Shown here: piece after piece, positions 1,060 to 63,759 of the stretch
How positions within the stretch are numbered: the stretch's first letter is position 1
How the letters are laid out: every line of letters starts with the position of its first letter
Source: Mesostigma viride
Taxonomy: Eukaryota > Streptophyta > Mesostigmatophyceae > Mesostigmatales > Mesostigmataceae
Length of the DNA stretch: 64,000 nucleotides
Reading direction: 5' to 3'
NCBI GenBank assembly: GCA_009746045.1
Contig: RPFO01000076.1
Span: 3,420,420-3,484,419, forward strand
Program-made: the position numbers and the translations under genes
Notes under the pieces: model-generated
Database searches by the model: none
The model's input: the letters and a program-made list of their open reading frames with translations, nothing else
Told to the model about the DNA's origin: nothing

Positions 1060-1340
1060 AGCGGGTTTTCTCAGGATCTCAGGATTTCTCAGGATTTTTT
1101 TACGAATCTCAGTGTTTCTCAGTGTTTCGCGAGACGCATCTCAGGCACTTCTCAAGATTCTCAAGAGAAGTCCTGATATAATATCAGGAATCCTGAGAAA
1201 AGTCTCAGGGTTTCTCAGGATTTCTCCTCATATCCTGAGAAAAAATCAGGAAATCTCAGGAAATCCTGAGAAAATCTCAGGAATCCTGAGAAAAATCTCA
1301 GGAAATCTCAGGATCCTGAGAAAAATCTCAGAACCCGACT
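1060..1340. repeat. Palindromic CTCAGGA / TCCTGAG array
   Basis: The heptamer CTCAGGA and its complement TCCTGAG recur more than twenty times in about 280 bp, separated by short A or T runs. The left half is mostly in one orientation (TTTCTCAGGA) and the right half mostly in the other (TCCTGAGAAAA). The array ends exactly where the gypsy protease frame becomes recognisable, so it marks a junction. Confidence 0.85.
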
Positions 1341-2679
1341 TCCTAGTGTGTCTGGGCACCAGAAGGAACCATCCGGAAACCAAACCACCCGCCGGCGCAC
1401 ACTGATGTCCACATCCTGCTTGTCCAGCCAGTCCACTCCAATGATGATGTCGGCAGCGCCTAACGGCGCAATAGTCGCCACCAGGTCCACCGGCGTGCCC
1501 TGCAGTACACCCTTGATGTCTGCTAGGCCCGGCGATTGGTGTCGCCGACCGTCGGAATAGGTGACATATACTGCCGTGGTGTGAGGTCGGGGTACCAGGC
1601 CCAGCCGACGCACCAGGGCCTCATTGATGAAGGACGTGGAGGCGCCGGTGTCGACCAGGAACTTCACATCCATGATCGTTTTCTCCTTCAAATACGGATC
1701 AAGGACGGTGGGAGGGACCAGTAACCCTCCGCTGAAAAGAAACAGATGCCGCGAATCTCCTTGAGATGCACGCGCCGCCGGTTGGGTGGACGCGTCTGCG
1801 GCCACGTTATTGACGTCTACCTCTACTCTAATTGACTCCGCGTCTGGGCTACCATCTGATTTTTCTACCCTATCCCCTACCCCGGGACCCAAGCCCATGG
1901 GCAGGGCTACTACTCCCGAGGAGCGGTGGGACGGGAGGCCGCCTCGCCCGACCACCCGCCCTCTTCCCCCCCTCCTCCTCCTCGTCAGCCCCCTCCTCGT
2001 CGTCATACTCGTAGCCAGCCACCGCCTGCGTTTGGCCGGAAGAGGAGGACTGTCGCCGCGCCTCAATCTCGTTGACCGCGCGCAACACACCCTTGGTAGA
2101 GCTGATCGCGGGGGTCGCGGCTGCTGGTACTGCGTCGGGACCTGTCTGGCGTGCTGCAGGCGAGCCGCACGCTCACCCGCGTTGCGGGGTCGGTCCCGAG
2201 GGCCGGAGGAGTCGGGGCGGCTGCCGAAGGCCGGGCCGGAGAAACGAACGCTGGGTGTCCCTTCTCCTGCCCCGCGACCGGCGTTCTTGCCCCGAAGCTT
2301 GGGGCAGTCGCGCTTGAGGTGCCCCACCTCACTGCACATGAAGCAGCGCGCCTTGCTAGCATCGATCGCGTTAACGCCAAGGTCAGTGTAGCCATCATCA
2401 GGGTCGTCGGGGTACTCCTCCTCCTCCTCGCCGGTGAGCTCCGTAGAGTACATCTGGTTCACCCGTCGCGGACCTGCAGTGGCTGACCTGAAGAAACGGC
2501 GCACCGAGGGCCGGTGCGCGCCCGCGAGACACCACGTCGGCCACCTGCAGAAGGTATCTCTGGATATTCAGGATGTCCCACTCCTTCCAGGGGACCTCAG
2601 CGTAGTGTTTGAATACCTCGTCCTGCAGCTCGGGGCTGAGCGCCTCGATGAATCTGATCTTGTACTCGTACCAGGTCAT
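1308..2679 (-). pseudogene. Gypsy gag C-terminus, zinc knuckle and aspartic protease
   Basis: The frame starting at 2679 continues gag (TWYEYKIRFIEALSPEL). It shifts near 2480-2500 into the frame that carries a CCHC zinc knuckle, CFMCSEVGHLKRDC. A low-complexity basic and acidic stretch follows. Then comes a retropepsin-like domain with the catalytic motif LVDTGAS, and later DIIIGVDWLDKQ. These are the two landmark segments of an LTR-retrotransposon protease, which would cut the Gag-Pol polyprotein in the virus-like particle. The stop codon at 1308 lies inside the CTCAGGA array, so the C-terminal residues are foreign. No RT follows. Confidence 0.85.
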
Positions 2680-6016: not shown

Positions 6017-6020
6017 AAAC

Positions 6021-6247
6021 CCTATCCGGTTAGCCGTAACCGTGGGACAAGCTAGCTGTCCGTACCGACCCGGATAAGGCCCCGGACTGGGGCCTAGGTG
6101 GCGCCGGCCCTAGGCGCCGCCCTTAGACCGGTCGACCGCATCGGACCGCCGGATTATAGCCGGCGGCTTAGCGGACGCTAGCGGAAGGCGTGCGGACGGA
6201 CATGGGTAACTTAGAGCCAGATCCTAGGGCTCTAGAGTTACTCAACT
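6021..6247 (-). repeat. Truncated LTR of the element B family
   Basis: These 227 bp match the last 227 bp of the two element B LTRs (26805-27031 and 32612-32840), with one visible substitution relative to the first. The first 120 bp of the LTR are missing. The cut falls four bases from the gypsy LTR end, which suggests that the gypsy element inserted into an older element B LTR. Confidence 0.9.
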
Positions 6248-6253
6248 ACTCCC

Positions 6254-8082
<1,829 letters not shown>

Positions 8083-8104
<22 letters not shown>

Positions 8105-9552
8105 GGTACCACCTGCGGCCTACCTGCCACAAGAACGAGGACGAGCTGGGGCATTTGGACGTCCTGTGCCACAAGTGCCACGGGCCGCCCCACGGTGACC
8201 CCAAGGACTGCAAGCGGCCTCCTTACGGCAAGAAGTGTGAGTCTCCCTCTCATGCTGGCTTGAGTGTGCCTGCTTCACCCCTTTCATCTGCATGCCCCAC
8301 TGTCAGAGCAGTGAGCAGTTCTGGAAAGGTGCTACAGCTGGTTTCAGAAGATTATGTCTCTAAACCAACCTTCACATCTATGGTTCCCAAGGTGTGCAGA
8401 GTGTCCCCCTCAGAGGATGCTCATATCAGTATACAGGAGCTTGCTTTGCAGTTGCACTTCCTTTATGGGCATGAAGTGAGTGCAGAGGTGGTGGCAGCAG
8501 CAATAGGGGGGGCAGCACTCAGACGTGCTTGCCAGGTGGTCAGATCCCACTGCCAGCATTGTCAGTTCAATGCACCCAACCCCCCTAAGGGGCATGTAGC
8601 TACCCCACCTAAGTGCAAGGGCAGGGTGGTAGGAGATGTCTTTCATATAAAAGGACAATCTTACTTGGCATGGTCAAGGTACACAACCATTGAACCATTA
8701 CCTGGAATGGACAAGACACAGTTGCTCAGGGCTCTCTTGATTGCTCAGGCCAGGTACTACCCTGTGGAGGCATTGTTACTGGATCAACAGTTCACGTGTC
8801 TTGCCAATGAACCAGGGTGTGAGGCTATTGATCTGGCAGGGCTAGAAGATCATGAGAGGCAAGGCATCATTGAAAGGGCCATCAGGTCCATTAAAACCCT
8901 TGTAGCCAAGGAGGATGGCAATCTGCTGGCTGACAGTGGGTCATATGCTGACAGAGCTCTGTGGTCCACCAGGCTGTGCCAAGTCCTCAACAGGAGGCCA
9001 CTCATGAAAACCCCACAAGGGGTGATCATTACACCAGATGGATTGCATGCAGGCATTTATCCACCTGAGGTACTAGCCCTCTACGATGCACAGCGAGCAC
9101 ATACAGCTAGCAGGTTAGCTGTCAAGGATGCAAAGCATCCACATCCCACCTTCAGAGAAGGGGATCAGGTCCTATTCTACAAGGAGTTGGGACTAGGCAA
9201 GGTGGGTACCTGGCATGGGCCAGCCACCATCCTAAAGTTTAACACCACTGGCAGGATAGTGTTGGTTAAACACAATGACACGGGTAAGATTCACAGGTGT
9301 TCACCTCACAGGATGAAATTGTATTTTCCAACTGTGTCAGACGTGGCAGAGGAGGAAGAGCTGTTGGCCGACAGCCCTGTACAGTTACCTGGCATCCCAG
9401 CGTTGCCCAGTGAGTGGTTGTTTGGAACACCCACTGGTGAGTGTGAGAGCCACAACCACTGTGACACCCAGGTCACCCTTGATGATTGCAGGCAGTCACT
9501 GCAGGCCTGGCCCCCTGCAGCAGAGGGTCAAATTGGCAAAACTGTCAGGTGA
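8083..9552 (+). pseudogene. Element A zinc finger, integrase and GPY/F-like domain
   Basis: The second zinc finger CHKCHGPPHGDPKDC lies near residues 29-43. An integrase HHCC zinc domain follows (H125 and H130 in LHFLYGH; C157 and C160 in CQHC). The catalytic core then shows D185 (VVGDVFHIKG), D234 (LLLDQQF) and E264 (GIIERAIR), the expected D-D-E set in divergent contexts. Near residues 375-410 an SH3-like segment, GTWHGPATILKF, resembles the GPY/F domain that normally ends Ty3/gypsy integrases. The protein would insert the cDNA into the genome. The protease-like domain lies downstream of it, in the +1 frame. Confidence 0.85.
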
Positions 9553-10072
9553 TCAGCAACCTCTCACCTCTTCAATTGTGAACATAGCTCAGCCACTAGC
9601 TGCACCTTCCAAACGCAGCCTAGCAGAAGCTGTTCGCATTTTACAATCAGCTCATAGAGCTAAAGCTCAAACTGCTGCTGCAGGATCAGCTAAGGTGGGA
9701 AAGGTTGGGCAGAATGACAATAGCCCATTTATGGTTGCAGTGGACACACAAGCCCAGGTCAGCATTATCAGTGCCCTGGCTGTGCCCCATTTGCCTTTGG
9801 AACCTTCACCCTGGCACCATGTGGCTGATTTCTCAGGGCAGTCATCCCTCAAGGTACAAGGTCAGGTCATGTTGACTATAGTTGGTATCCCAACTCCTTT
9901 TCAGGTATTGGAAGGTTATAAAGGGAATGCCTTGTTGGGTGATCCTTTTCTCTCTTACCCTGGTGTCATTATCTCCAGTGATAGACTAGCCATCCAGGAC
10001 CTGGGTGGTGTTGATCTGAATCATTTCAAAATTTCTCTTCAAAACTTCTTAACACCAACATTGCTTCTGTAA
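9410..10072 (+). pseudogene. Element A retropepsin-like domain with DTQ motif
   Basis: The frame overlaps the end of the integrase frame. Recognisable protein starts about 9560 and contains VAVDTQAQVSII (D112-T113-Q114) where aspartic proteases have DTG or DSG. LLGDPFL follows, resembling the second conserved segment of retropepsins. The matching regions of elements B and C have the same spacing. It lies between integrase and reverse transcriptase, not before integrase. Whether it is an active protease is unknown. The frame stops at 10072 and RT resumes in another frame. Confidence 0.75.
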
Positions 10073-10112
10073 AATTTGCTACCCCAAGTATGCCCCAGGG
10101 CAAGAACCCTGT

Positions 10113-11180
10113 GTGGCAGACTTGGTTCATAACCAAAAACTTCACCCCACCTCCTTTGGATTGGGCAAGCATGATGTGGCTAAAATGTCTCCTCTTTCTT
10201 ATGAACAGATAGAGCAAGATTGTCGCACACACATAGGTTTCCTAAAATGGGTGGAGGCCTTCAACAAGGCCAGGGAAGAATGGGTAGTGCCAGATCCTCT
10301 TAGCCCCTCTCACACTCCACCTGTCACACCTATTGACAAAAAGCCTGCAGGGTGCAAGCACTTGCGCCTGAAGTTTGTGTGCAAACATAAGCCAGCAGCA
10401 GATGGGTCAGTCATTTTCCATGCTAGACCTTGTGTGACAGAGTTCAAGGGCACCACTGATCTGACAGAGGCAGAGTTGTACACGCCAGGCATTCAGCAAA
10501 CCTCTCTCAAAATATTGCTGTCTGTCTTTGTGGGTCATCTCAATGACGGGGATGACTATGTATGTAAGGCTACAGACATTAAAAGGGCTTTCTTGAAAGG
10601 CTCACCTGAGATAGCACAACAAGTGTGGCATGGTCAGGTGTATGTAGTCTCCACTCCCAGAGTTTGGGCAAAACACATCCCTCAGCAGTACCTGAAAGCT
10701 AACATAGGTGTTGAAGGGCTGCAATCAGCTCCTCGCATTTTCAGGATGTCAGCTCAGGCTGTGTTTGAAAAGCTAGGGGCTACATATGATGACATAGACC
10801 CTTGCTTCTTTGTGGTCCCACACCCTCATGGCATACTCACCTTTGTGCGGCATGGGGATGATCAGCTGATTGCTGGGCCAAGGCGTGCTGTAGATGATTT
10901 TATTCAACAAGTGTCACAGCATTTTGAGATTGGCAAGCAAGTAGAGCTGGGCACCACTGCCATAAAATTTTGTGGCACAATGTTACAACTCCAGCAGCAT
11001 CAAAACCAGTGGGTGTGTGCACTTTACTCTCCCAATGATTACATGCACAGCTGCTTGGAGGTTTTGCAAACAAAAATCAAACCTGGAGCCTGCCCACCAT
11101 TAGAGGCAAGCTGGGGTGGTTGTGCTCAACGTGTGCACCTCACCTGGCTGTGGTTAGCAGAGTTGATGATGATGTCTTGA
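10113..11180 (+). pseudogene. Element A reverse transcriptase
   Basis: RT fingers are seen at LRLKFVCKHKP (residues about 84-94). The first catalytic Asp is D155 in ATDIKRAFLKG, and the active-site box is FVRHGDDQLIAG (HGDD, residues 247-250). GVEGLQSAPRIF is the palm segment before the box. Copia elements usually have YVDD here. The frame is lost near 11130, where the RNase H frame takes over. Confidence 0.85.
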
Positions 11181-11788
11181 TGCAAGTAGGTCACAAAGCC
11201 ATCACCAAAACTCTCCAGGAAGGCCCTCCCCTTATCTTGCATTCCTTGGATCTCCACAAAACCATTCACATCCAAGCTATGATGGATAGTTCCATGGAGT
11301 CCAGGCAGATTACCAAGTTGCAGGCAAGGGAGTCAGGCTTGTATTTTGTGCAGAATGATGATGCACCCTTGTCTCTCATTTCATGGTACAGCCGGTTGCA
11401 TAGACGCAAGGCTGTCAGCAGCAATGCTGCTGAGTGCAGGGCAGTGGTGTCAGCAGTGCTTCATGCCAGGTACTTGAATCATGTGCTGGTCTGGTTGCAG
11501 ATGCAAGCAGGCAGCAATGCTGGGGTGGTGGCACACTTGCTCACTGACAGTCAGTCAGTCCTCAGTTTCCTTGCTAACCCCTATGCTGTGCACACTGATC
11601 TTGACTGGGTGGTCCTTAAACAGGAGTCCACCTACTGGGAGTCCACCCGTCACGTGGAGGACAAACACAACGCTGCTGATGCACTCACTAAAGTGCCTCA
11701 GCAGGCAGCTGATCAATATCAGCTGTTGTACCACTTGATGAACCCGTATGGCAAGCAGGCAACCCTGCTCCATCGGGGGGACGCCTAG
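11120..11788 (+). pseudogene. Element A RNase H, C-terminal end of pol
   Basis: Copia-type RNase H landmarks are present: an AMMDSSMESR segment (first acidic residue), SWYSRLHRRKAVSSNAAECR (Glu), LTDSQSVLSFLANP (Asp) and NAADALTK near the end. It would degrade RNA in the RNA-DNA hybrid. The stop is at 11788, followed by a GC-rich 3' region. Confidence 0.85.
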
Positions 11789-13249: not shown

Positions 13250-13477
13250 TACAATCGTCATTCTCATTTCCAGCTTTCGTCAGTTGTCCTACGTCTCACG
13301 ACGCATTCCAACTTCCACCTCCTTCATCTTGATTACAAACTTGAGCTTGAGTAGACGCCGTGCAGGAGGCAGGTCATTTACAGGTTCCACGCACTTCTTG
13401 GAGATCCAGGCCTCCCCAGATTTAATCAGACCCAGTGTGACCTGGGGACACATAATGGGAGAGGACATAAGCTTCAC
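13250..13477 (-). pseudogene. Element C RT N-terminal remnant
   Basis: A short frame contains LLKLKFVIKMKEVEVG, aligning with the RT fingers segment of element B (RLRLKFVLTYKP). Similarity ends near 13250 before any catalytic residue, so the element is truncated there. Confidence 0.65.
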
Positions 13478-14526
13478 CAGGCCTGGTAGTTGATAGGGCT
13501 GTGTCCAGCAAGTGAGTGAGGACCAATGCCCAAACTGCTTGGATGACTAGCAGCTGGCAGTATGAGGTCATCAACCAAGGGCTCCTGCCCCTGGCACACT
13601 TGCACACGCTTAACCGACCTGGTTACTGCAAGTGATAGGTGAGTGGTCCTGAAATTAATCAGTGGGACCTGACCAGCCCCTTCCTTAGTCAGGAGAGAGG
13701 ACGTGATCACTACCCCATCCTGGCATAGGAAATTCTGCCCCAGCAGAAGAGCAGGTCCCTGATAGCCCTCCAAGACACAAAAAGCAGTGTCCTGTCCAAG
13801 GATGGGAATAGATACCTCACCCAGTACCTTCACGTGTACCCCGCCACTGAAGTCAGACACAAACTGATAGCTGGGTTCAGTCATGCTGTACCCTGCTGCA
13901 GCTCTGGTCCCAATGATGGAAACCTGAGAATTAGTGTCTACCTCTAAGGCGGTGTCCAGCCCCAGATTGCCATGCCACCTGAGCTTGGCTACCTTGGGCT
14001 GCTTCTTGGCCCTTTGCAGAGCTCCAATCAATCCAGCCAAACTAGTCCCCCTGGGCTTGGTTAGAGCCTTGGGCTTGACAGTTGACTCCCCAGCTGTTGA
14101 CCTTGCAGCCTGTTCAACAAGTACCTCTGCAACCTGGCCAGGGCTGACAGATTCCCCTGCAACAGATGTGGTCGTTGCGTCAGTGATGCCACCTGGGACC
14201 TGAAAATCCTGCAGATCCTGTGAGCCTTGTGCCTGACTGCCCTCATTCATCAGGTTAGGCTTGACATATGACCAACTCAGCCGGTGTACATGCTTTGGTT
14301 CGTCCTCCATGCTGACCAAGCATGCGTGGCTAGCTTCATCAACCTGGGTTACCACCCCAGGACTCCAGCTACCACGTTTGCCATACAGGCTCGGTTCCTT
14401 CCAAGCTAATACTCTCTGACCCACTGTTGGCTCCAGCATCTTCCAACCCCGGTCCTTCTCCCTCAGCTTGGCAAAGGTGACATGTGCAGCATGTTTCCAG
14501 CCCTCCAGCCGACATGTGGGGGGCAC
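13474..14526 (-). pseudogene. Element C integrase C-terminal domain fused to DTN protease-like domain
   Basis: Residues about 35-90 form the SH3/GPY-F-like segment (LYGKRGSWSPGVVTQVD). After a Ser/Thr/Val-rich linker comes LEVDTNSQVSIIG (D197-T198-N199), then VLEGYQGPALLLGQNFL, the counterpart of the retropepsin second segment. The start of the RT connection (SLGIGPHSLAGHSPINY) matches element B. All of this is in one frame, so integrase directly precedes the protease-like domain in the polyprotein. Confidence 0.8.
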
Positions 14527-15374
14527 AGGCCATGATATAGACCCATTGGGCTGACAGCAACTCCATCATAGTAGAAATTGACCCTGCTGTTCAGCTGCTG
14601 CTCCACGTTCCTCAACCATGCACTCCTGACAAGTGCAGGTGCAGACAAGGGTACCCAGTCTTCAGAGATGATCAATTTCTTGACCTCCTGGATTGCCCTC
14701 TCTATAGCACCCTGCTGCCCATGAGCCTCCCTAGGTGTAACCAGCAACTCAGGAAGGGTGGGATCACCCTTGAGATGCTGAAACTGCATGTCCACCTGGA
14801 TCCTTGTGGTAGGAAACTTGGCTCTTACATTCTGCAGGGCAGCCAGCAAGTACCTGTTCTTCATATAAGGTAAATGCTCTAGCACCTTGTACTTTGTGTA
14901 CCTGTCCACGCACACCAACAGTTGCATGCCCCTGATGTGTTGGATATCACACTGCAGATCACCAATGCTCTGAGGTAGAGCTTTGGCATGTGATTTCCTG
15001 GGCTTGTTGGAGGACAACTGGCACTTACACCGTGAGGCAGCTTGCTGGCACGGCTTGAGAAGGGGTGCCCTGCCCATACGGAAGGCAAAGTTGTTTGACA
15101 GAGAAGTGGCATGCCCAAACATGTTGTGGATCTGGGCACCCAACTCCTGGTACACGGAGGAAGCAGTCCCTGGCACAGTCAGGACTGTGCTGTCAGGTTG
15201 TCCAGCATCACCATGCTGACTTCCATCCTGTTCTGACTCAGAGCCTGAGTCACCCTGCTCATGCCCAACACCTGGACCGCCAGCAGGGACCACATGCATA
15301 CCACCAGAGGCCTTCACACCCCTCTGTGGTTGTACATTGGTTTCTCTCAAACTGAGAGGTCCACCCTCCAGCAC
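14463..15374 (-). pseudogene. Element C integrase
   Basis: An HHCC-like zinc segment is present (HNMFGH at 83-88, then closely spaced cysteines at 109-118). The catalytic D-D-E set is D143 (LQCDIQHIRG), D195 (IQVDMQF) and E225 (GAIERAIQ). The frame is lost after MGLYHGLCPPHV. The integrase C-terminal part continues in the frame starting at 14526. Confidence 0.8.
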
Positions 15375-15573
15375 GAGGATGCATGGAGTCAGACATTCTT
15401 ACAGCTGCACCAGCTGTCAAGGACGTCTTCATAGGAACCTGTACCTCTCCAGGTGACCTGGGGCCATCCTGAACCTGGAGATCACCCTCTTGTTGCCCAG
15501 ATATAAAATCTGCATTGGAGCACCTGGCCTCCCCTTTGGGTGAATTAAGGTGTGCAGGGGTTGCCTCAGACAG

Positions 15574-16695
15574 TCACTGCTCCTTGCTGTCTTCTTGTTG
15601 ACTGCCCTTTGAAGGCTGGCCTGCCTGGGACTTGTTGTTGTTCTTGTTGTTGTTTTTGTTGTTGTTATTCTTGTTGCTGCCCTGGCCCTGGGTCTTCTTG
15701 AAGCTGGGACACTCCTTCTTGATGTGCCCCCACCCCTTGCACAGGTAGCACTGGATCTTTGACTTGCCCTGGCCACCGCCCCCGTTGTCAGATGCGTTGC
15801 CCTGCTTGGGCTGACCACCCACCCGCCTGAACACCGACTTGGAGTGTGACCTCCCGTCAGGGTCGGGTGAATGATTGGCCTTCCGCTTGTTGTGGTTGCC
15901 CCTACGCCCTCCTTGGCTTCTGCCAGCCTCAGACGATTTGGAGCCCCCCTGGGTACGCCCACCTGCCTGTGTTGCCTTCACTGCTGGCACCCCACCCTCA
16001 AACAGCTCCTCCGCTTCAAGGGCCTGCTTGATGATGACCTTGTAGGCCTTCATGGTGGAGTGAGGAGCACACATGACCTTGAGAGATCCACGTGTGGCCT
16101 TATCCAGCCCAGAGACCTTCAACCAGTTGGTCAGGGCTATACTGTCTGCCACGTTGAAACCGTGGGCCCTGCCTTCCTCAACCATTTTGCAATAGTTAAG
16201 GAAATTCTGGATGAGATCCCCCTTGACCTCCCACCCTTGATACTTGTCTTGCCAATGGATGCCGACCTTCTTGCGTTGGTCTTCAAGCAGCTCCTTCAGC
16301 TCAGCTACATAGACTGCCCAGGCCTTGTTGGCCTTCTTGCATTCCCTGGTTAGGTCCTTGATCTGATCAGTGCACTTGCCAAACGTGCTGCTGCCTATCC
16401 AGATCTGATAGTAGTTGGTACCCCCGTACAAACTAGGAAACCCTTCCAGCCCTTCTACAAACTTTTCAGCCTGCTTAGGCTTGGAGTCAGATGTCACAGG
16501 TTGTAGCTGATTTACAATTGATAAGCCCTGAGTGGTAAGGTCAAATCCATGTACAGCTTGTGTATTATTAGGGGTGTGATGTACATTGGTAATTTCCCCG
16601 GTGACACCCACGTCATCTACGTGAGCTGTCCCACTACCAGCACCACCATTATTCCCGCTGGCTGGGGCACCCTTGCTACGGCGCCCGTCTGCCAT
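15574..16695 (-). CDS. Element C gag
   Basis: An intact 373-residue frame starts MADGRRSKGAPASG. The capsid-like region (residues about 90-240) aligns by eye with element A gag. A basic linker follows, then one CCHC knuckle, CYLCKGWGHIKKEC, near residue 310. The C-terminus has an NNNK-repeat tail, an echo of the polyAsn tract in element A. It would package the element RNA. Integrase continues in a different frame after an in-frame stop. Confidence 0.8.
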   Translation of the reverse strand: MADGRRSKGAPASGNNGGAGSGTAHVDDVGVTGEITNVHHTPNNTQAVHGFDLTTQGLSIVNQLQPVTSDSKPKQAEKFVEGLEGFPSLYGGTNYYQIWIGSSTFGKCTDQIKDLTRECKKANKAWAVYVAELKELLEDQRKKVGIHWQDKYQGWEVKGDLIQNFLNYCKMVEEGRAHGFNVADSIALTNWLKVSGLDKATRGSLKVMCAPHSTMKAYKVIIKQALEAEELFEGGVPAVKATQAGGRTQGGSKSSEAGRSQGGRRGNHNKRKANHSPDPDGRSHSKSVFRRVGGQPKQGNASDNGGGGQGKSKIQCYLCKGWGHIKKECPSFKKTQGQGSNKNNNNKNNNKNNNKSQAGQPSKGSQQEDSKEQ

Positions 16696-16863
16696 GATGC
16701 ACTACAAGCTGTCCTAGAAAAACTTGAGCAAAGCTAGCAGCAAAAGAAAGTATGTACAAAACTGTCGACTATTGCCGCCTGCACCGGTGTCGCCGCCGCC
16801 CCCGCGAAATGCCGTTGAAGTGTCGACTAAATGCCGACGAGCACTGGAGAAATGGCCGACGTT

Positions 16864-17616
16864 TTAATAGTCAAGGCCACGAAAGTCACAGTACTCATAT
16901 GCAAACCGATCGGCGTCCTCCATGTCGGGCGTGATAGCCGGACCCGCACCGGTGTGGATCAACACCGGCGTATTCGCCGGGTTTTGCGTCGGAATGAAAA
17001 TCGCAACGCGCCGACGCGCGACAAGGCGAAGAGGATGCGTAAAGATGGAAAGAAGCTCCCAGCCCGCTGGGATCCACTCACGCAAAGCCGAGAGAAATGC
17101 CACCAGGTTTATGAGGACCTGGCGCTCGCGAGTGCGGACGCCGCGAGTGAGCAGCGAGAGCAACGCGATGTCTTGAAACAAATTTGTAGAGACCACAGGC
17201 GCGCCCCCCGTGCGCGTCGAGGCCCAGTTTTGTAAATTGCGCTGATACCCGGTGAGCGACGAAATGGCGTTATCCACCTCCTCAATGGCGGTGGTGACCT
17301 CGTTCACCGAACGCAGGCCTCCGCGGACCTGGACCGTAAAAGCCGAAAGAATATTTCGGATTTGGTCTAATGGACCACGAATCGCCGGCACCAGCGGCGG
17401 CAAGCGGGGGTCTGCTGGAAAATCTCCCAGCAACGGGAGCGCTGCTCGCTGTCGACGATGCAATTCGTCGAGTGAAATCGTGACCTCGTCAAGGAGAGCT
17501 TGCCACGATGCAGCAACCGGCTGCGGCTCACGCGGACGTGGAGCCGGTAATGGATCTGCCGGCGGAGCAGCTACTTCCTCATCGGTAGGAATGCGGAAGT
17601 CTTCGGAATTCGGCAT
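16864..17616 (-). CDS. Unrecognised 250-residue protein
   Basis: The ATG at 17616 (MPNSEDFRIPTDEE) is preferred over an upstream in-frame ATG at 17715, because the added residues look non-coding. The protein has a Pro-rich N-terminus. A helical stretch rich in Leu, Arg and Asn follows, with heptad-like spacing (LDEVTISLDELHRRQRAALP, then SVNEVTTAIEEVDNAISSL). The tail ends FAYEYCDFRGLDY. It looks like a structural or gag-like protein with a coiled coil, but no family is recognised. It lies on the same strand as the viroplasmin-like ORF upstream and element C gag downstream. Confidence 0.45.
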   Translation of the reverse strand: MPNSEDFRIPTDEEVAAPPADPLPAPRPREPQPVAASWQALLDEVTISLDELHRRQRAALPLLGDFPADPRLPPLVPAIRGPLDQIRNILSAFTVQVRGGLRSVNEVTTAIEEVDNAISSLTGYQRNLQNWASTRTGGAPVVSTNLFQDIALLSLLTRGVRTRERQVLINLVAFLSALREWIPAGWELLSIFTHPLRLVARRRVAIFIPTQNPANTPVLIHTGAGPAITPDMEDADRFAYEYCDFRGLDY

Positions 17617-17716
17617 GATCGTGAAAAGGCGAGTAATACGAGTTTTGAGAGGGTTGTGCAGAATTCCGCCATGGTTCTTGCAGGAAATGTTGCCTTTATT
17701 ATGAATAAGGAACACA

Positions 17717-18364
17717 GACGTAAGTCACGTCACTTCCAAGACTGCACAAAGCACAGGCGACAGGGTCGCAGTGCCAAGAGAGCGTGCACGCAAGAACTAG
17801 CGTCCCGGTGCTACCAAGTCACACATATATAGGTTGCTAGGGACGCGTCCAAGTATTCAGCTGCACTGTCACAGCTGAACTGTCAATCAATTGATTACAC
17901 AGACTCTGGCACGCCTTTGGCGCGCAGATCTATCAATTGTCCATACGGCTAGTCCTGTGGACCTATCCGTACGCTGCTCAGCATCAATTGTCTCATAGGT
18001 CCTGGCGCGCTATAGCACGCCTACCTATCAATTGACCATCAAGTCCTGTACAAGTCCTGTCAACGTCCTGCGGACTGTCAAAGTGACACTTGTACATCCT
18101 GTGTCCGTACGCGCCCACAGTGGCGCGCCGGGTACTGTCGGCACAGCCTAGGAAACGTCATAACTTTTACGTTCCTTAACCAAATGAGGCGTTCAAGGTG
18201 CCGTTGGAAAGAGCGTAACAATCTCTATCCATCTAACGTAAATCCTTTACGTTAACTGGATCCATGTTTAATTAATTAAAAAGAAAAACAATGTAAGTTG
18301 CCTTAAGAAAAGGATAGGAATCTAAATTGAAGCAATGAAGGCAAAAGGAAAAACCTTGAATGTC
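17717..18364. other. Non-coding stretch with recurrent ATCAATTG motif
   Basis: The octamer ATCAATTG occurs four times between 17880 and 18035 at intervals of about 45-50 bp, interleaved with GTCCTG repeats. It may be part of an LTR or promoter of the flanking unassigned element. No gene is seen. Confidence 0.4.
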
Positions 18365-19161: not shown

Positions 19162-19479
19162 CTACTCTCCCAGCTTGAAGGCGACCCGCCCATTACCTGT
19201 CAAGTAGGTGTCGTCTTCGTTTCCCTGGACGCGGAAGGGTTGTTGCAAAGGCGTATGTGACAAGGGATCGTCGTCTCGCTCTCTACCTACGAAAGTTCCT
19301 CCGGAACCATTGTTACGTCCTAAACTTCTACCACCACCTCTACCTCTACCTGGCCTAACGCTACCTAAACTAGTCAGGCCACCTCTACTCAATCCCCTAG
19401 CGAAAGACGAACGAGACGATCCAGATCTCAATGCATTCACGTTTGTATTACTATAATACGCCATAAGCCATTTACACAA
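19162..19479 (-). CDS. RG-rich small protein, left inverted-repeat copy
   Basis: A 105-residue frame starts MCKWLMAYYSN, has a Ser/Arg/Gly-rich middle (RPGRGRGGGRSLG) and an acidic C-terminus. The first 56 residues have a paralogue at 23125-23373. The two nucleotide copies differ largely at third codon positions (for example TAT/TAC, GGA/GGT, TTG/CTG), which indicates selection on the protein. RGG-type tracts usually bind RNA. A gag-like nucleocapsid role is inference. Confidence 0.6.
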   Translation of the reverse strand: MCKWLMAYYSNTNVNALRSGSSRSSFARGLSRGGLTSLGSVRPGRGRGGGRSLGRNNGSGGTFVGRERDDDPLSHTPLQQPFRVQGNEDDTYLTGNGRVAFKLGE

Positions 19480-19866
19480 ACCCGTTTACTCTAGGAATAG
19501 AGGAAGGAAACACAACTACACTGCCGTGACCCAAGCTAATATGTGTTAATTCATTTAACACACGCCGAGTGCCAACACGAGGGGTAGAACGTGCATAAAT
19601 GGTCACTAACGGTCCAGCATGCTCGGGCCGACATGGCCCTCGCCTACAGATGCACAGATGCACGCTGGTCCACTACATTCTACCCAAAGGATAAGGACCA
19701 CTACTAAAGTACGCGGCGCGACGCCCAAAAGCATCCAATGCACCACAGTACTGTTACGAGGACAACAGTGTCCCAGTACGAACTACACGTACTGACCTAG
19801 GAACGACCGAGGCAAAAGACCTAATTTACGTCCGTAACTACAACGAATTGTTACGCGACGTAACAC
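19311..19866 (-). repeat. Left arm of a 557-bp inverted repeat
   Basis: It is the reverse complement of 22735-23292, with many substitutions and small indels. It includes the start of the RG-rich ORF and about 390 bp of upstream sequence. The inner end of both arms reads GTGTTACGTCGCGTAACA. The arms point outward and are separated by about 2.87 kb. Confidence 0.85.
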
Positions 19867-22734: not shown

Positions 22735-23292
22735 GTGTTACGTCGCGTAACAAGCCGTTGTAGTTATGGACGTAAATTAGGTCCTTTGCCTCGGTCGTCC
22801 CTAGGTTTACGTGTAGTTTGTACTGGTGGACACTGTTGTCCTCGTAACAGTACCGTGGTGCATTGGATGCTTTTGGCGTCGCGCCGCGTACTTTAGTAGT
22901 GGTCCTTATCCTTTGGGTAGAATGTAGTGGACCAGCGTGCATCTGTGCATTTGTAGGCGAGGGCCATGTCGGCCCGAGCATGCTGGACCGTTGGTGATCA
23001 TTTATGCACGTTCTACCCCTTGTGTTGGCACTCGGCGTGTGTTAAATGAATTAATTAACACATATTAGCTTGGGTCATGGCAGTGTAGTTGTGTTTCCTT
23101 CCTCTATTCCTGGAGTAAACGGGTTTGTGTAAATGGCTTATGGCGTATTACAGTAGTACTTACGTAAGTGCACTGAGATCTGGATCGTCTCGTTCGTCTT
23201 TCGCTAGGGGTTTAACTAGAGGCGGCCTTACTAGTTTAGGTAGCATTAGGCCGGTTAGAGGTAGAGGTGGCGGTACAGGTTTGAGTCGTAAC
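22735..23292 (+). repeat. Right arm of the inverted repeat
   Basis: Counterpart of 19311-19866. On the complementary strand a short frame ending DLIYVHNYNGLLRDVT has a frameshifted counterpart in the left arm, so a second protein may overlap the upstream region. Confidence 0.85.
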
Positions 23293-23373
23293 ACGCGTGC
23301 TCGCTTTGCTAGCATTGCAGGCCGTGCCCCTGGCCTAGTGATCAAGAACGAGCGTGGAAGGAGGGCCGACTAA
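23125..23373 (+). CDS. RG-rich small protein, right inverted-repeat copy
   Basis: 82 residues starting MCKWLMAYYSSTYVSALRSG, then RPVRGRGGG. It is parallel to the left copy for about 56 residues, then runs into unrelated sequence at the start of the LINE fragment, so its C-terminus is probably not original. Confidence 0.55.
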   Translation: MCKWLMAYYSSTYVSALRSGSSRSSFARGLTRGGLTSLGSIRPVRGRGGGTGLSRNTRARFASIAGRAPGLVIKNERGRRAD

Positions 23374-24392
23374 CAAGCAGAATTTACTAGCCGACGACAT
23401 CACGCTCATCGAGAAGCCGGAGTCTGCCCAACTTAAGCTGGACTGCCTGGCGCTCGAGGCTCGGCCGGGCGGTTGGTCTAGAAATCAGCCCCAAAACGGA
23501 GGCCGTGGCCCTCTGCATGGCTGGCCCCCCGTCCACACTCCGCCTCTTAGACGACACCGAGGTCAGTCAACTACCCTACTTCAGGCCGCTTCAAGCTGCT
23601 CGGCAGTTGGCTTCCCTACTGCGAGAACGACCTAACGACACGGATCGGCATGGCGTGGGCGCAACTCCATGACCACTGCCGCTGGTGGAGCAACCCCGCC
23701 CTACCCCGGATCATCAAGCGTGACCTCTGCAAGGTCGTCATTCTGACGATCCTGACCTACGGCGCCGAGGCCTGGACACTGACGCAGGAGCTGGAGCAAC
23801 CACTCGACGGCAACGTCACCAAGATGCTGCGCAAGGCCCTCAGTACCATCCCCTTTGGTTTGCACATTAGTAATGAGGATTTGTACGCTGATTTGCCCTA
23901 TGTTTCCGAAATTCTTAGGGACAGGCGCCTGGGCCTAGCCGGGCACCTCAGGCCCGCACAGATCAGGTAGACACATCAGATAGACTAGCTGGCACCAAGC
24001 CCGCCCAGCCTGGGCGATATGTCCTCACCTGGCGTGCCCCAGGCCGCGCGCGGTAGCAGGCCGCCACCCGTGGACTTTTCGTGATAGACTCGGCATGGAC
24101 ATGTGCTATACACTAGACGTGACGGGCTCACACCCGGGCAGCCTCCTGGTTTGTCTGTAATATGGAGGCAGATGGTACGCAAGGATAGATGGCACGTAGT
24201 GATGAAGGAGACCACCCCCAAGCCTGTGGGGGCTCCGCGTGTGACCAAGTATGGCATTCATAGCGATTCGGGCCGCGGTGCCCACACCCCTGTAACTAGG
24301 ACCTAGATAGCTTACACCATCCATCCCATCCCATGTATGTTCCCCTCCCACTGAGGACTTATGCTCACGTGACGCAGTCACGTGTCTATTAA
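23360..24392 (+). pseudogene. LINE reverse-transcriptase 3' fragment with 3' hairpin
   Basis: Pieces in several frames match the C-terminal half of the LINE RT at 33778-35014: LLADDITLIE (the ADD box), LDCLALEARPGGW, VILTILTYGAEAWTL, then RDRRLGLAGHL and RYVLTWRAPG. IWRQMVRKDRWHVVMKETTP matches the last conserved part of the LINE protein. The 3' end carries the perfect stem CACGTGAC / GTCACGTG with loop GCA (24366-24384), followed by TTAA. It is 5'-truncated and frameshifted, as dead LINE copies usually are. Confidence 0.85.
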
Positions 24393-26684: not shown

Positions 26685-27031
26685 AGTTAAAGCCCCCGAC
26701 CGGCTGAGCTATGGCGATCGGTCACGTTGAGCTTGGGATAAGGTGAACACAGAGAACTGCTGTCGGAGCTGGCCAACCACTGGTTTATGTCTTAGCCAGC
26801 AAAGCCTATCCGGTTAGCCGTAACCGTGGGACAAGCTAGCTGTCCGTACCGACCCGGATAAGGCCCCGGACTGGGGCCTAGGTGGCGCCGGCCCTAGGCG
26901 CCGCCCTTAGACCGGTCGACCGCATCGGACCGCCGGATTATAGCCGGCGGCTTAGCGGACGCTAGCGGAAGGCGTGCGGACGGACATGGGGAACTTAGAG
27001 CCAGATCCTAGGGCTCTAGAGTTACTCAACT
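26685..27031 (-). repeat. Element B 3' LTR
   Basis: Ends AGTT...AACT rather than TG...CA. Near its AGTTAAAGCC end it contains a GACCGG / GATCGGTC stem. Confidence 0.95.
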
Positions 27032-27409
27032 CCGACATACTCTTTTGTTCTTTGATTAATTATCAAAATAATTACATCAAATGCAGACCATACAAAACCC
27101 TCTAAGGTAGGGAACTCAAGGGGGCCTCAAGGCCGTCAAAATCACCACGGTATCGACCCGCGCCCTTGTGATCACACATGAATAGTGATGTAATAAGTAT
27201 CGAGAAAAAAACAACTATGCCACCAGACAAAAGGTGACCCATTTATTAGGACCAGTGACCCGCCGACGGGCCCAAGGCACCGTCCAACGTGGCTAGGGTA
27301 TGGTCAGGACAAGCAAAAAAAACTACCACCATGATATTCGTGAATGCTAGCAACACAGGGTGAGTTATGGCTGTATTCATAAAGCGCCCGAGCCGTAACC
27401 CTGTGTGGC
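27032..27409 (-). other. Element B 3' untranslated region
   Basis: Between the RNase H stop and the 3' LTR. No gene. No clear polypurine tract was identified next to the LTR. Confidence 0.5.
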
Positions 27410-29728
27410 TCACGGGTGTTGCATCGTCATGCGCTTGCGCAACACTGCGTACTGCGGGGCAGCCTCCCGCGCCTCCTTGGTGAGTGCATCCGCGGGATTG
27501 AGTTCATCCGCGATGTGCTGGAGACGCGTGACGCAGGAGGCCGCCTCAGCGAGTACGAGGTAATCAACGTCCTGTGACCGCGCATAGGGATTGTCAAGGA
27601 AGGCCAAACAACTTTGTGAGTCAGTGTGCACCGTGCTAGTCCAGTGAAGAGTGAACCCACACGAGCCAAATACCCAACCCAGCAAGTACCGCAGCCACAT
27701 GCCATGTGAGATAGCTGAAACAATGCCCCGGCATTCAGCCGTGTTGGGGCTAGTGGCAATGCGGCTGTGCAAGCGCGAGTACCAATCTAACAACATGCCA
27801 GGCTGGCCCTCATTGCTGATAAAGAACAGTGCCCCCATGCGGGCCCGCACTTGGCTGACTGTGCGCGTCTCTAGATTAGCATCCGTCACTATCTCGAGGT
27901 GCACCGGCTGTGAGCAATCGAGCCCACGAAGCACAATGCCGGGCGTCATGGCCAGCTGCCGCCGAACATGAATGGACCCTAGTCCTTCCAGCACATCATC
28001 GGGCAGGCGAGCGAGCACTGCCAAATCAGGTGCCACCGTGTCCGCCAACCACCCGAGCTTGCCCTTAACCGAGGGCCCATGGGTTGCCAACAGCGGGGAC
28101 GGGAGGTCGGCCAGCAGGTCAACCACATAGTTGCGGCTATCCTGCATGTGCATGACCCATTCGCCAGAACGCGAATCCCGCTGCAACGTAGACTGCACGC
28201 CGCAAAACACCACGGGTTTACCCTCCTCATGATCCACCGCCCTGCCCAGGGGAAACTTAGCCGCCACTGCAGCAAGAAACTGGGTAGCAAAGGTGCGAGG
28301 TGCCACCAGCTTGAAGTCATCGCCATGCCACACGAAGAGGGCTGGCTCGCCAGGGACGCCGGTGGGGACCACAAAGAAGTTAGGATCCGCGCGATGGTAC
28401 GTGGCCCCTAAGCTCTGCAAGACCTCCTCCGCGGAAATGCGGAAGATGATGGGAGAGCTCTGCAGCCCCTCCACCCCTGTCAACAGCTCGATATACTCGC
28501 TGCCAATGGTGCCATCCTGCCAGACCACCGGGACCTTCACCACGTAGCGGGTGCCTTGCCATGTTTGCTGCGCGACCCCAGCGTCGCTGTGGAGGAATGC
28601 CCGCTGAAAGTCACCGCACCACATCCCGTAGTCCTTGCCCGCGTTCCGCTTGCCCAAGTAGATGACCGTCAGTAGCCGATGCGAAACATGGTTGAGCCCA
28701 GGGGTATAAAGATCCTTGGCGTCCAGCGGGGAGGACCCCTTCGTCTCCGTGACCACGGGCCTTACCCGGAACACCACCGAAGAGTTGGTCTCGTCCGGCT
28801 TGTAGGTGAGCACGAACTTCAACCGCAACCGCGTGGCCCCGGCTGGCACACTCTCCAATCCTCGGTAGACCTCGCGCTCTCGCCACTGCTCCTTGGCTCG
28901 AATGAACGCGTCGCGCCACAAAGCAAACTTGAGAGGATCTTGACAGTCCAGGACAAGTTGCTCCCACGTCACAGGGCTATCCGCCGCCAGTGAGTGTGAG
29001 TGGAGGCCGAAGCTGCGCGGGTGCCAATCCTGAGGCTGAATGATGGACTGGACGAGCGGCGGTGTGGAAAACGCCGCCATCGGTAAGCGCCGCACGACGC
29101 CGGGCTGCCCGACCACCACCCCCAATGGAGCGTGGTACTCGCGAAGCGGGATGCTGCCCACCCCCGCGACTGACAGCAAGTCAGCGGACACTGAGAACCC
29201 CGGGTATGATACGAAAGGTTCGCCCAGCAAGGCCACATCCTCGTAGCCATCCACGACGTGAAACGGCGTGTCAATGCCCAACACCGGCAGCACCACCATC
29301 CCGGTAACTTGATATGCCGAAGTGCCTGCAAAGTCGGTCACCGATTTGTACGGCGACTCTAGCACTGGATACAGGGTGGCTGCCCGACGAGAGATAATAG
29401 ACACGGATGCTTGCGTGTCCACAGCCACCAGCTGCCACGGTCTACACGTAGGAAACAAGGCTGACTTAACCGGCCTGACCCCCTGTGAGAGAGTTTTGAC
29501 CTGAGCCACCCCTGATGCAGCTTTCGCTTTAAGCGCCTGAGCACGCCACAAGGCCGTGACCGTTGAAGCCAGGTCCCTAGGTGGGCGAGGCGCATGGGCA
29601 GGACCCTGACCCTCCGGCGAGGCCACGCTAGGCGGGCCTCCCACATTATCCGTGGCTAGCACAGGAGGTGAGTCACTACGTGCACTAGGTCCCGTCAAAC
29701 CCACCCCATCCTCATCCCACCCATCCAC
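27410..29728 (-). CDS. Element B protease-like, reverse transcriptase and RNase H polyprotein
   Basis: An open 772-residue frame. Retropepsin-like domain: D104-T105-Q106 in VAVDTQASVSII, then LLGEPFV at 167-173. RT: RLRLKFVLTYKP (300-311), the first Asp D373 in MWCGDFQRAFLHSD, GVEGLQSSPIIF, and the box WHGDDFKLVA (HGDD at 468-471). RNase H: D616 (IVTDANLE), E665 (NTAECR), D703 (VHTDSQS) and NPADALTK (744-751). It would copy element RNA into cDNA. The frame overlaps the upstream integrase frame by 34 bases in a different register, next to a C-run. The protease-like domain lies after integrase. Confidence 0.92.
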   Translation of the reverse strand: MDGWDEDGVGLTGPSARSDSPPVLATDNVGGPPSVASPEGQGPAHAPRPPRDLASTVTALWRAQALKAKAASGVAQVKTLSQGVRPVKSALFPTCRPWQLVAVDTQASVSIISRRAATLYPVLESPYKSVTDFAGTSAYQVTGMVVLPVLGIDTPFHVVDGYEDVALLGEPFVSYPGFSVSADLLSVAGVGSIPLREYHAPLGVVVGQPGVVRRLPMAAFSTPPLVQSIIQPQDWHPRSFGLHSHSLAADSPVTWEQLVLDCQDPLKFALWRDAFIRAKEQWREREVYRGLESVPAGATRLRLKFVLTYKPDETNSSVVFRVRPVVTETKGSSPLDAKDLYTPGLNHVSHRLLTVIYLGKRNAGKDYGMWCGDFQRAFLHSDAGVAQQTWQGTRYVVKVPVVWQDGTIGSEYIELLTGVEGLQSSPIIFRISAEEVLQSLGATYHRADPNFFVVPTGVPGEPALFVWHGDDFKLVAPRTFATQFLAAVAAKFPLGRAVDHEEGKPVVFCGVQSTLQRDSRSGEWVMHMQDSRNYVVDLLADLPSPLLATHGPSVKGKLGWLADTVAPDLAVLARLPDDVLEGLGSIHVRRQLAMTPGIVLRGLDCSQPVHLEIVTDANLETRTVSQVRARMGALFFISNEGQPGMLLDWYSRLHSRIATSPNTAECRGIVSAISHGMWLRYLLGWVFGSCGFTLHWTSTVHTDSQSCLAFLDNPYARSQDVDYLVLAEAASCVTRLQHIADELNPADALTKEAREAAPQYAVLRKRMTMQHP

Positions 29729-31758
29729 GGGGTCATATTGGGGCCCAGGGGAGGGGGGGGTGTAGCTGTGTCTGCCCCTGGGAGCGACCCGTGGGGTACC
29801 ACCTCAGATGCTACGACAGGCGCATTATCCTTCACTACCCACCCCAGTGCCCTGTTGGCTGCCAGCTCACTCTCCATGCTATCCCCTTGCTTATAGCCTG
29901 CCACCGATGCCCATGGTACCCTATACACCCGATCATTCCACTCTATGTCTATGACCCGCAGCGGCCAGTCTAACTTTGTGATGGCCCCAGGCCCCTGCAT
30001 GGTGCCCCGTTTGCCGCTGGGCGAGCTCTCCTTGTGGAACATGACCAACTGCCCGACCTCAAAAGCGCTAGACAAATCAGGCAGCGTGGCATCCTTGAGC
30101 CGCAGCTTGGCGGCGGTATCCTGTAGATGCTGTTGGTATGCCTCTACTACCTCGGGTGAGTAGGTGCCCGCTGACAGCCCCCGAGGCGTGACTAGCCCAA
30201 AGCCCTTGACATCAAGCACGTGCCTATGGTTGCACACATGCATGAGCTCCTTGCACCACGCCGTCTTGACCGCGTAGGATTTGCCATGTGGGTTATCCTG
30301 TCGCTTGGCTGCCACAGTCTTGACATAGCTTACAGTGCGATCTATCATGCCCATATTGCCGTGATCCTCACGCCCCACGATGACCACGGCCTCCATCCCC
30401 GGCAAACCTTGCACACAGCGGAACTGCTGGTCTAGCATGAGCTCCACTACGGGATGAAAGAAAGCCAGGCTGATCTTGATAGCCCTGTGCAGGTCAGCCT
30501 CAAACATGTGAGGCAGCGGCTCAATGTAGGTGACCTTGCTGAACCTATCCTTGACTATGAAATAGGTGTCCCCCCCTTCCATGTGCATGACATCCCCCAC
30601 AAGGTACCCTCGCTCCAAGGGTGGAGTCTTGGCATGCCGCCTACGCGACTTCTTCCTGATCTTGATGCAGGCAGGACACTGAGCACGCACATTCTTCAGC
30701 TCGTTGTATAAAGGTGCCCCTAACATGTGTGCCCCCTCTACCTCGGCTTGGGCCTCATGCCCGTATGCACGGTGCATCTGGTATGCTAACAGTTTCAGGG
30801 TGACAGCCTGAGGTGCAGTGGCATTGTCAGGATTCTCAACAGGTGGGGTGACTACTGGGGTAGTGACATTGGCTAACTGGGCAGCTTCAGAGGCTGCACG
30901 AAAGGCCGCCCGTGTGAGCACCTTGCCAATGTGAAGATCCACACTAGGGTGGTGTGTACCGAGAACATCTGCCCGCCCAGCATTCTCTTGCACTGTCACA
31001 ACATTCCTCATAGGCCCAACCGCCCCAGTATCTAGCTGGGGTGCTGCAGTAGTGCTTGGTCGCTCGGCGTTGTACACACCCGACCTAGAAGACACCACAT
31101 TGCTTAGGTCACGCATTGTAGACCCGTGCTCAGGAAGCACGTGATCCTGGCGCGACAGAGCCAGAGCAGCATCAACGGATTGCGTGAGCACATCACGGAA
31201 TGAGACAGAGGATGCAGTCACGTTGCTTTTAGGAACGACGTCAGGCTCTACGACGGCCCGGTTCAGCGTGACGCATTGAGCAAAAGAAGGGGTATCGAGC
31301 GTGCTCTCACCTGACTTTCGTGCTGCCCGTCGCTCTGCCCACTCCTCGCGTGTGCCGTGGACGACGATGCGCTTGGCCTTGCACGCCTCCACGCTGTGAC
31401 CACGCAGAACGTCGTGGCACTTGCGGCAAAGGTTGTCCTCGAGCTCCAGGTCCGGGCGAACTCGGCAGTCATCCCGGACATGGCGACGTCCGAAGCAGCG
31501 CTCACAGCGTTGCTTGCGGTCAGTAGACGCCCCCTGCTGCCGCTTGGCCGGGGGATTATCACCCTGCTTGGCGTCGCCACCATGCCCGCGCTTGCGCCCT
31601 CGCTGGCCCCCGTTGTTGCCGTGGCCGACGACCTTTTTCAGGATGGCCGTAAGCTCCGACCGCGTAATTGGAGCCTCTGCGCCTGAAGAAGAAGACGCGC
31701 CGGTCCACCTTGCGCAGGGATGGCAGAGCAGCCGAGGCAGCCGGCTTGGACTGCGCAC
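29695..31758 (-). CDS. Element B zinc fingers and integrase
   Basis: 687 residues. CCHC fingers at 84-98 (CERCFGRRHVRDDC) and 111-126 (CRKCHDVLRGHSVEAC). Integrase HHCC: H329 and H334 (MHRAYGH), C361 and C364. Catalytic core: D389 (VGDVMHMEGG), D443 (LMLDQQF) and, at the Glu position, D473 (GMIDRTVSYVK). Around 590-620 is the GPY/F-like segment GKRGTMQGPGAITKL. The Asp instead of Glu may cripple strand transfer; elements A and C keep Glu. The first residues belong to the gag C-terminus. Confidence 0.9.
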   Translation of the reverse strand: MRSPSRLPRLLCHPCARWTGASSSSGAEAPITRSELTAILKKVVGHGNNGGQRGRKRGHGGDAKQGDNPPAKRQQGASTDRKQRCERCFGRRHVRDDCRVRPDLELEDNLCRKCHDVLRGHSVEACKAKRIVVHGTREEWAERRAARKSGESTLDTPSFAQCVTLNRAVVEPDVVPKSNVTASSVSFRDVLTQSVDAALALSRQDHVLPEHGSTMRDLSNVVSSRSGVYNAERPSTTAAPQLDTGAVGPMRNVVTVQENAGRADVLGTHHPSVDLHIGKVLTRAAFRAASEAAQLANVTTPVVTPPVENPDNATAPQAVTLKLLAYQMHRAYGHEAQAEVEGAHMLGAPLYNELKNVRAQCPACIKIRKKSRRRHAKTPPLERGYLVGDVMHMEGGDTYFIVKDRFSKVTYIEPLPHMFEADLHRAIKISLAFFHPVVELMLDQQFRCVQGLPGMEAVVIVGREDHGNMGMIDRTVSYVKTVAAKRQDNPHGKSYAVKTAWCKELMHVCNHRHVLDVKGFGLVTPRGLSAGTYSPEVVEAYQQHLQDTAAKLRLKDATLPDLSSAFEVGQLVMFHKESSPSGKRGTMQGPGAITKLDWPLRVIDIEWNDRVYRVPWASVAGYKQGDSMESELAANRALGWVVKDNAPVVASEVVPHGSLPGADTATPPPPLGPNMTPWMGGMRMGWV

Positions 31759-32474
31759 TCTTGAAGCATGAGATCAAATACAGCATGCCCTCGTCGAAAC
31801 TGACGCACTCTTCTTTTTGAGTTCCGTCGCTATGGTCAGATGCACATCCGACGACAGGTCGCATTTCTTGAGAAATCGATTGCACAGGAAAATGGGCTTG
31901 AGAGTATCTAGCAGCTTGTGCTTGTGCACGAAGACCTGGAAATCACGTGCAGCCCCGGGCAAATTTGCCTTATTAACTGCATAGCCCTCGAAGTCGTTGA
32001 AGGCTTGCTCGTCGGCCTCTTCCTTAGACCGCGACAAGTGGGCATCTAGACCGTTGTAAAAAACTTCCCAGGTTTGTTTGTTGTCGTCCGCAATGCGAAC
32101 TAGATTGGCAATGTTTGGGTGCTTTGTTGTACTGCAGAATACTGCACGGAACTTGCCAATCAGCTCCGAATCTTTGTCTGCGCGTCCATCGCGCAGACGC
32201 TTGAGAGCAGCTAGAAAATCTGCTGCGTCGTCCGCCGTATAGTCGGCAGGTAGATCGCGGGCACCTCCGTTTGCTTGAGAGGGCCGCGATTCAGTGCATC
32301 GTCAGCAGCAAGCATCAGATGCTTGAACTGCTTGGCCAGTTCAGGTTGCGCCACGAGGGTTTGCATCAACCTCGTGGCCTCGTCCGCACTAAAGCGTGGC
32401 AGGACGGTCCCTGCGGCCTCGCCACTTGGCGTATCTGTGTGTTCGCCCGTGCGGCTCCGTGTACCGGAAGCCAT
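31559..32474 (-). pseudogene. Element B gag remnants in three frames
   Basis: The start is MASGTRSRTGEHTDTPSGEA at 32474, 20 bases from the 5' LTR. The frame ends at 32211, resumes in another frame from about 32037 (EADEQAFNDFEGYAVNKA), and again near 31830 (EECVSFDEGMLYLISCFKSA) before the zinc-finger frame. At least three frame changes make this gag non-functional as it stands, so the copy would depend on gag from elsewhere unless introns are involved. Confidence 0.7.
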
Positions 32475-32493
32475 CGGGATTTTTATGAATACA

Positions 32494-32840
32494 AGTTAAA
32501 GCCCGACCGGCTCAGCTATGGCGGTCGGTCACGTTGAGCTTGGGATAAGGTGAACACAGAGAACTGCTGTCGGAGCTGGCCAACCACTGGTTTATGTCTT
32601 AGCCAGCAAAGCCTATCCGGTTAGCCGTAACCGTGGGACAAGCTAGCTGTCCGTACCGACCCGGATAAGGCCCCGGACTGGGGCCTAGGTGGCGCCGGCC
32701 CTAGGCGCCGCCCTTAGACCGGTCGACCGCATCGGACCGCCGGATTATAGCCGGCGGCTTAGCGGACGCTATAGCGGAAGGCGTGCGGACGGACATGGGG
32801 AACTCAGAGCCAGATCCTAGGGCTCTAGAGTTACTCAACT
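32494..32840 (-). repeat. Element B 5' LTR
   Basis: 347 bp, near-identical to the copy at 26685-27031. Only about 19 bases separate it from the gag start codon, which leaves little room for a primer-binding site. Confidence 0.95.
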
Positions 32841-45104: not shown

Positions 45105-45340
45105 CTGGCCTGCGCTGGTTGTCTCCTTGATGGATGGCAAGTAGTGATGCAGGAGACCACCCCCAAGTCTGTGGGGGCTCCGCGTGTGACCGCATATGGC
45201 ATCCATAGCGATTCGGGCCGCGGTGCCCACAACCCTGTAACTAGGACCTAGATCGCATACACCATCCATTCCATCCCATGTTCCCCTCCCACTAAGGACT
45301 TATGCTCACGTGACGCAGTCACGTGTCTATTAATTAATTA
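45105..45340 (+). repeat. LINE 3' end, second copy
   Basis: Matches 24165-24390 (GTGGGGGCTCCGCGTGTGAC; GATTCGGGCCGCGGTGCCCA) and ends with the same stem CACGTGAC / GTCACGTG (45307-45325), then TTAATTAATTAATT. It is a severely 5'-truncated insertion. A preceding GGCCTGCGCTGGTTGTCTCC block occurs twice, 108 bp apart (44999 and 45107). Confidence 0.85.
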
Positions 45341-62738: not shown

Positions 62739-62817
62739 CTGGCAACCACCAATGTGCATGCATGGGAAGGGAAGTGCCGATATCTGACACACGCACATAT
62801 AAATATGGGGCACGAGC

Positions 62818-63620: not shown

Positions 63621-63759
63621 ATGCACGGATGGGGGGGGACAAGCCAAGCGCGCATGGGGGGGAAAAGGCAGGCAGTACCGACGGACAAGGAGACTATGCC
63701 AGTGCGGACGGTGCACCACGAGGGGCAGATCTTCAATGCTGATCTTTAGTCAGCTTGTT

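Follow-up and report, generated by a model that had tools for sequence, protein, structure and literature searches.

The DNA analyzed here (the window) is a stretch of 64,000 nucleotides from the genome of the green alga Mesostigma viride (assembly GCA_009746045.1, contig RPFO01000076.1, positions 3,420,420 to 3,484,419) that contains three long terminal repeat (LTR) retrotransposon elements, designated A, B, and C. Together with F2, found elsewhere in the genome, they represent four divergent families with a common pol order, GAG-integrase (INT)-protease (PR)-reverse transcriptase (RT)-RNase H (RH), in which the protease domain lies between INT and RT.

Elements B, A, and C in the window

Element B (26685..32840, minus strand, 6156 bp) is flanked on both sides by the 5-bp duplication AGGGC (plus strand) and bounded by a pair of 347-bp LTRs (5' LTR, 32494..32840; 3' LTR, 26685..27031) that are approximately 98% identical. 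Its gag (31774..32495) is broken into frames in the window copy and is followed by a frame (29695..31773) encoding two zinc knuckles of the gag end (31369..31506) and an integrase with HHCC motif, catalytic core, and SH3-like C-terminus, of which the zinc-binding motif and D-D-D core occupy 30304..30774. The HHCC motif of retroviral-type integrases (rve) was found together with a predicted integrase fold that has their D-D-E/D core. A frame of 797 amino acids (27410..29803) then encodes a predicted retropepsin-fold domain (29144..29425; VDTQASVSII, catalytic D codon at 29419), RT (28034..29038, HGDD), and RH (27413..28036). This frame overlaps the INT frame by about 108 bases and lies in the -1 frame relative to it; its first ATG falls within the protease domain. 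The overlap contains, at 29740..29758, two heptamers, CCCCCCT (29758) and GGGCCCC (29746), that are candidates for -1 frameshifting.

In element A (plus strand), gag (6236..8101), in which a long (AAC)n run at 7714-8112 encodes many consecutive Asn residues, is followed by INT (8041..9552, third acidic residue E), a retropepsin-like domain (9692..10039, VDTQAQVSII), RT (10053..11180), and RH (11039..11788), which confirmed the earlier claim that A has the same order as B. An LTR belonging to element A was looked for in the window and was not found. The segment at 6017-6247, directly before its gag, is a fragment of a B-family LTR; it was rejected as an LTR of element A because of its 99% identity to the LTR of B and its inverted orientation relative to the A genes. 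A piece upstream of an F2 copy (L035:457-663) is 94% identical to part of the A gag, which indicates that the genome contains further relatives of family A.

Element C (minus strand) comprises a 5' LTR (17661..18257; 96% match to a stretch downstream of pol in copy L059), an additional open reading frame (ORF) of 286 amino acids between this LTR and gag (16864..17724), a gag with zinc knuckle (15574..16701), and an integrase with HHCC motif and core (14463..15398; weak rve match, E 0.065). The additional ORF had no Pfam match and was matched in three other C copies with 58-80% amino acid identity in pieces. As had been stated in the preliminary description, the integrase C-terminus and the retropepsin-like domain (VDTNSQVSII) share one frame (13474..14565), an arrangement also seen in 1208-codon frames elsewhere in the genome. 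The window copy is truncated at about 13314.

Copies of the families in the genome

Protein searches, in each of which approximately 8000 candidates were scored, returned for the B frame two EukProt gene models of M. viride, P0012 (99.5-100% identical) and P0013 (46%), the latter representing family F2. Two further searches returned, among the candidates scored, an ordinary Copia polyprotein (P0014) and another Mesostigma model (P0015). Copies were then sought in the M. viride genome (439.9 Mb, 2243 contigs).

The B PR-RT-RH protein (P0001) had at least 57 genomic matches, including that in the window, all 100% identical over 797 residues and free of stops; of 8349 first-look candidates these 57 were scored, chosen by their score, so that the true number may be higher. 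Nucleotide identity of 15 other B copies to the window copy was 99.49-99.78% (for L013 over 4326 bases only). Among 15 3' flanks compared (the window and 14 copies; the flank of L011 was not recovered by string search), no two were alike. The INT stop and the overlap with PR were identical in 16 of 16 copies, so that damage of the window copy was rejected as the cause of the frame change between INT and PR; P0015, a gene model from another record, also stops at the same place. The 535-codon INT stretch was open in 7 of the 15 fetched copies, with frame breaks or a shorter frame in the other 8, and gag and INT formed one frame in three of five other copies read upstream (L017, L019, and L020; broken in L016 and L018). 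LTR pairs of four B copies were 96.6-99.1% identical. Target duplications of 5 bp were present in three of five B copies, including that in the window, and were not seen in the copies on contigs C1 and C335.

Family F2 had 71 genomic matches, 13 of which contained an open frame of 1249 codons. In all 12 fetched copies, no stop interrupted the 500 codons preceding the start of P0013, and in all four copies read upstream this stretch contained an INT with 44.9% identity to that of B (E about 7e-92). In the same four copies the gag frame ended at a TGA just before pol, and the long gag frame and pol shared a frame in all except L036. LTRs were 98-99% identical within two copies. Twelve copies were at least 99.68% identical in the best aligned piece, and no two of their 3' flanks were alike. 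To judge from their sequences, the elements of B and F2 appear to have transposed recently.

Family C showed 112 genomic matches, 12 of them with an open frame of 1208 codons. Motif positions were identical in the three intact copies read; in L057, INT matched at 146-438, the PR motif lay at 546, and RT extended from 662 and RH to 1203. The gag closed at a TGA in the pol frame in 3/3 copies, its upstream frame being shorter in L057 and L058 than in L059. A search for LTRs of the C copy on contig C114 did not yield a pair.

The search for intact copies that had been recommended in the preliminary description thus identified INT-PR-RT-RH in single, uninterrupted frames in both F2 and C. Since window frames are broken in A, in C, and in the gag of B, a local rearrangement or an assembly error in the window was weighed as the source of the unusual order. 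Its recurrence in four families and many copies, the uninterrupted frames of F2 and C, and the dissimilarity of all flanks compared (15 of B and 12 of F2) led to rejection of this explanation, whose probability is regarded as negligible. The same copies bore out the order originally read in element B and the argument that three elements spoke against a local event.

The domain between integrase and reverse transcriptase

In the model predicted for the B protease domain (predicted local distance difference test score, pLDDT, 74; 81-88 in the core), comparison with Foldseek and VIA-align 2 identified a retropepsin fold resembling Ddi1 and retroviral types. The outcome that the preliminary description had named as fatal to its proposal, a DTQ domain that is not a retropepsin, did not occur. 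The D-T/S-G active-site loop of retropepsins was absent from all four families, the glycine of DTG being replaced in each (DTQA in B and A, DTNS in C, DTMA in F2). The Asp, the Thr, and a later hydrophobic-Gly motif were retained in all of them. Pfam protease matches were weak in A and B (E 0.05-0.24), and none were obtained in C or F2.

Between-family identities were 38-51% for PR and 30-47% for INT among A, B, C, and F2, and 38-49% for RT and 37-44% for RH among A, B, and F2; C pol was 33-38% identical to RT and RH of the other families. PR is thus as conserved between families as INT, RT, and RH, which argues that the domain is functional. Replacement of the glycine by Q, M, or N in every family and Pfam matches that are weak at best would also be consistent with a catalytically dead retropepsin that now serves as a structural or dimerization module, with processing by a host protease or no processing at all. 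This alternative is considered unlikely in view of the retained D, T, and hydrophobic-Gly residues at this level of divergence, the degree of conservation of the domain, and the apparent recent mobility of B and F2 elements that carry it. If the domain works, a retropepsin lacking the active-site glycine would be relevant to the strictness of the motif.

An ordinary Copia layout of B, with a true protease in the linker between gag and INT, was also evaluated. A scan for DTG or DSG between gag and INT identified one DTGA in B (31032, in the INT frame) and one DSGS in C, the latter embedded in an acidic, low-complexity run, and none in A or F2. The B linker was modeled without strands at a pLDDT of about 25-35. 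Based on this model and on the lack of DTG or DSG at this place in F2, the DTGA at 31032 was rejected as the true protease of B, and the ordinary layout is regarded as very improbable. A true protease between gag and INT, the other finding that would have spoken against the preliminary description, was not convincingly present in the scanned window stretches of A, B, and C, in F2, or in intact C pol.

When compared by profile, PR did not match the P0014 protease, and 26 columns (E 0.009, probability 4%) aligned with an ORF in the window that encodes a canonical protease. This ORF (1311-2504, minus strand) combines a CCHC knuckle with a retropepsin of canonical type (VDTGASTSFI; gag-asp_proteas, E 1.2e-9) and is probably a Ty3-like gag-protease remnant.

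Classification, relatives, and proposed expression

The pol orders listed in Table 1 of PMC8220671 are Gag-PR-INT-RT-RH for Copia and Gag-PR-RT-RH-INT for both Gypsy and Bel-pao. The order read in the F2 and C frames differs from PR-INT-RT-RH, and INT does not follow RH as in Ty3/gypsy elements; it lies upstream of both PR and RT. An RVT_2-type RT was identified in A (E 4.4e-10, above cut-off) and C (E 7.9e-7, below cut-off); B and F2 alone gave no RVT_2 match, and Pfam scans of whole B frames were uninformative, the RTs of A, B, and F2 being related at the identity given above. Family scans gave no gag_pre-integrs match and listed no RVT_1 match.

The M. viride families thus resemble Ty1/copia elements (Pseudoviridae) in the RVT_2-type RT of A and C, an integrase upstream of RT, a terminal RNase H, LTRs (B and F2), and the 5-bp target duplications of B, but differ from them in a protease located after integrase, the replaced active-site glycine, and the missing gag_pre-integrs match. 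With Ty3/gypsy and BEL/Pao elements they share a protease directly before RT, a fold matching Ddi1 and retroviral types, and a weak gag-asp_proteas match, whereas their integrase precedes RT and their RT matches RVT_2 rather than RVT_1. Gmr1-like Ty3/gypsy elements provide an earlier case of moved pol domains with integrase upstream of RT; however, the available descriptions present them as gypsy elements with a Copia-like INT order (PMC2774666, PMC8220671), not with INT before PR. The ordinary Copia polyprotein P0014 could be aligned over 430 columns of RT-RH and 161 of INT, but has the order CCHC, DSGA protease, INT, RT, and its protease could not be aligned with the Mesostigma PR. In the RT catalytic loop, all four Mesostigma families have HGDD, and P0014 has HVDD.

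Because domain order, a defining feature, does not agree, the lineage was filed as Copia-related and outside Ty1/copia. Its kinship to Copia is judged from the matches of A and C to RVT_2, from target duplications of 5 bp, and from a profile that aligned with a single Copia polyprotein of ordinary layout. Judged by sequence, the lineage is best read as related to Copia, and its protease, a predicted retropepsin that is probably active, as either relocated or acquired anew. The interpretation given in the preliminary description, a distinct LTR-retrotransposon lineage with protease between INT and RT, is supported by all four families.

Transposition would proceed through an RNA template and a Gag particle, with RT/RNase H and an integrase generating 5-bp duplications, as suggested by element anatomy, LTRs, and duplications. 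The PR between INT and RT, with its predicted retropepsin fold, would presumably cleave Gag-Pol as a homodimer, although Q, M, or N stands in place of the DTG glycine. Recoding probably gives rise to Pol. In F2 and C, gag is followed by a lone UGA and then by INT-PR-RT-RH in the same frame, and readthrough may be used; in B, a -1 frameshift may occur at the INT/PR overlap, which contains the two heptamers in frame. Since gag and INT of B form one frame and PR-RT-RH is in the -1 frame, B integrase would be produced at Gag level, and, with the first ATG of the protease frame inside the protease, fusion to INT would be the simplest route to a whole protease. We consider it highly likely that these families form an M. 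viride lineage, related to Ty1/copia by RT, that has the order GAG-INT-PR-RT-RH and transposes and recodes as proposed. A bolder reading can be offered tentatively: a separate superfamily-level lineage that captured a protease afresh downstream of integrase, in which the non-glycine active-site loop works and, in B, integrase is made at Gag level and protease and RT are rare frameshift products.

LTR elements of Mesostigma have been annotated in bulk (60339 elements, given as 27.9%, in the consulted text of PMC6947507), and a Copia clade with this order might already have been described or catalogued elsewhere. No report of an INT-PR order was found in titles and abstracts of the open-access literature, Repbase and most subscription papers lying outside the search, and among the protein candidates scored none outside Mesostigma had this layout, which makes an earlier description improbable. 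Sequence searches against solved structures returned nothing informative, nor did searches of viral contigs and phages, a set that possibly did not include Mesostigma's own genome.

Pol orders are in use as superfamily marks and for classification of elements, and the existence of a different order in a young lineage of several families suggests that the protease can shift relative to integrase with mobility kept, and that the layout is less fixed than thought. The lineage also offers a natural test of why the protease usually adjoins Gag.

Elsewhere in the window, long inverted repeats at 19311-19729 and 22871-23293 (90-97% complementary, about 3.1 kb apart) enclose a 341-codon ORF without a Pfam match. 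A repeat pair at 24184-24392 and 45129-45333, with members 20.9 kb apart, is about 89-92% identical, and tandem arrays lie from 40601, from 55919, and at 62673-63656, their periods being about 8, 40, and 36, respectively.
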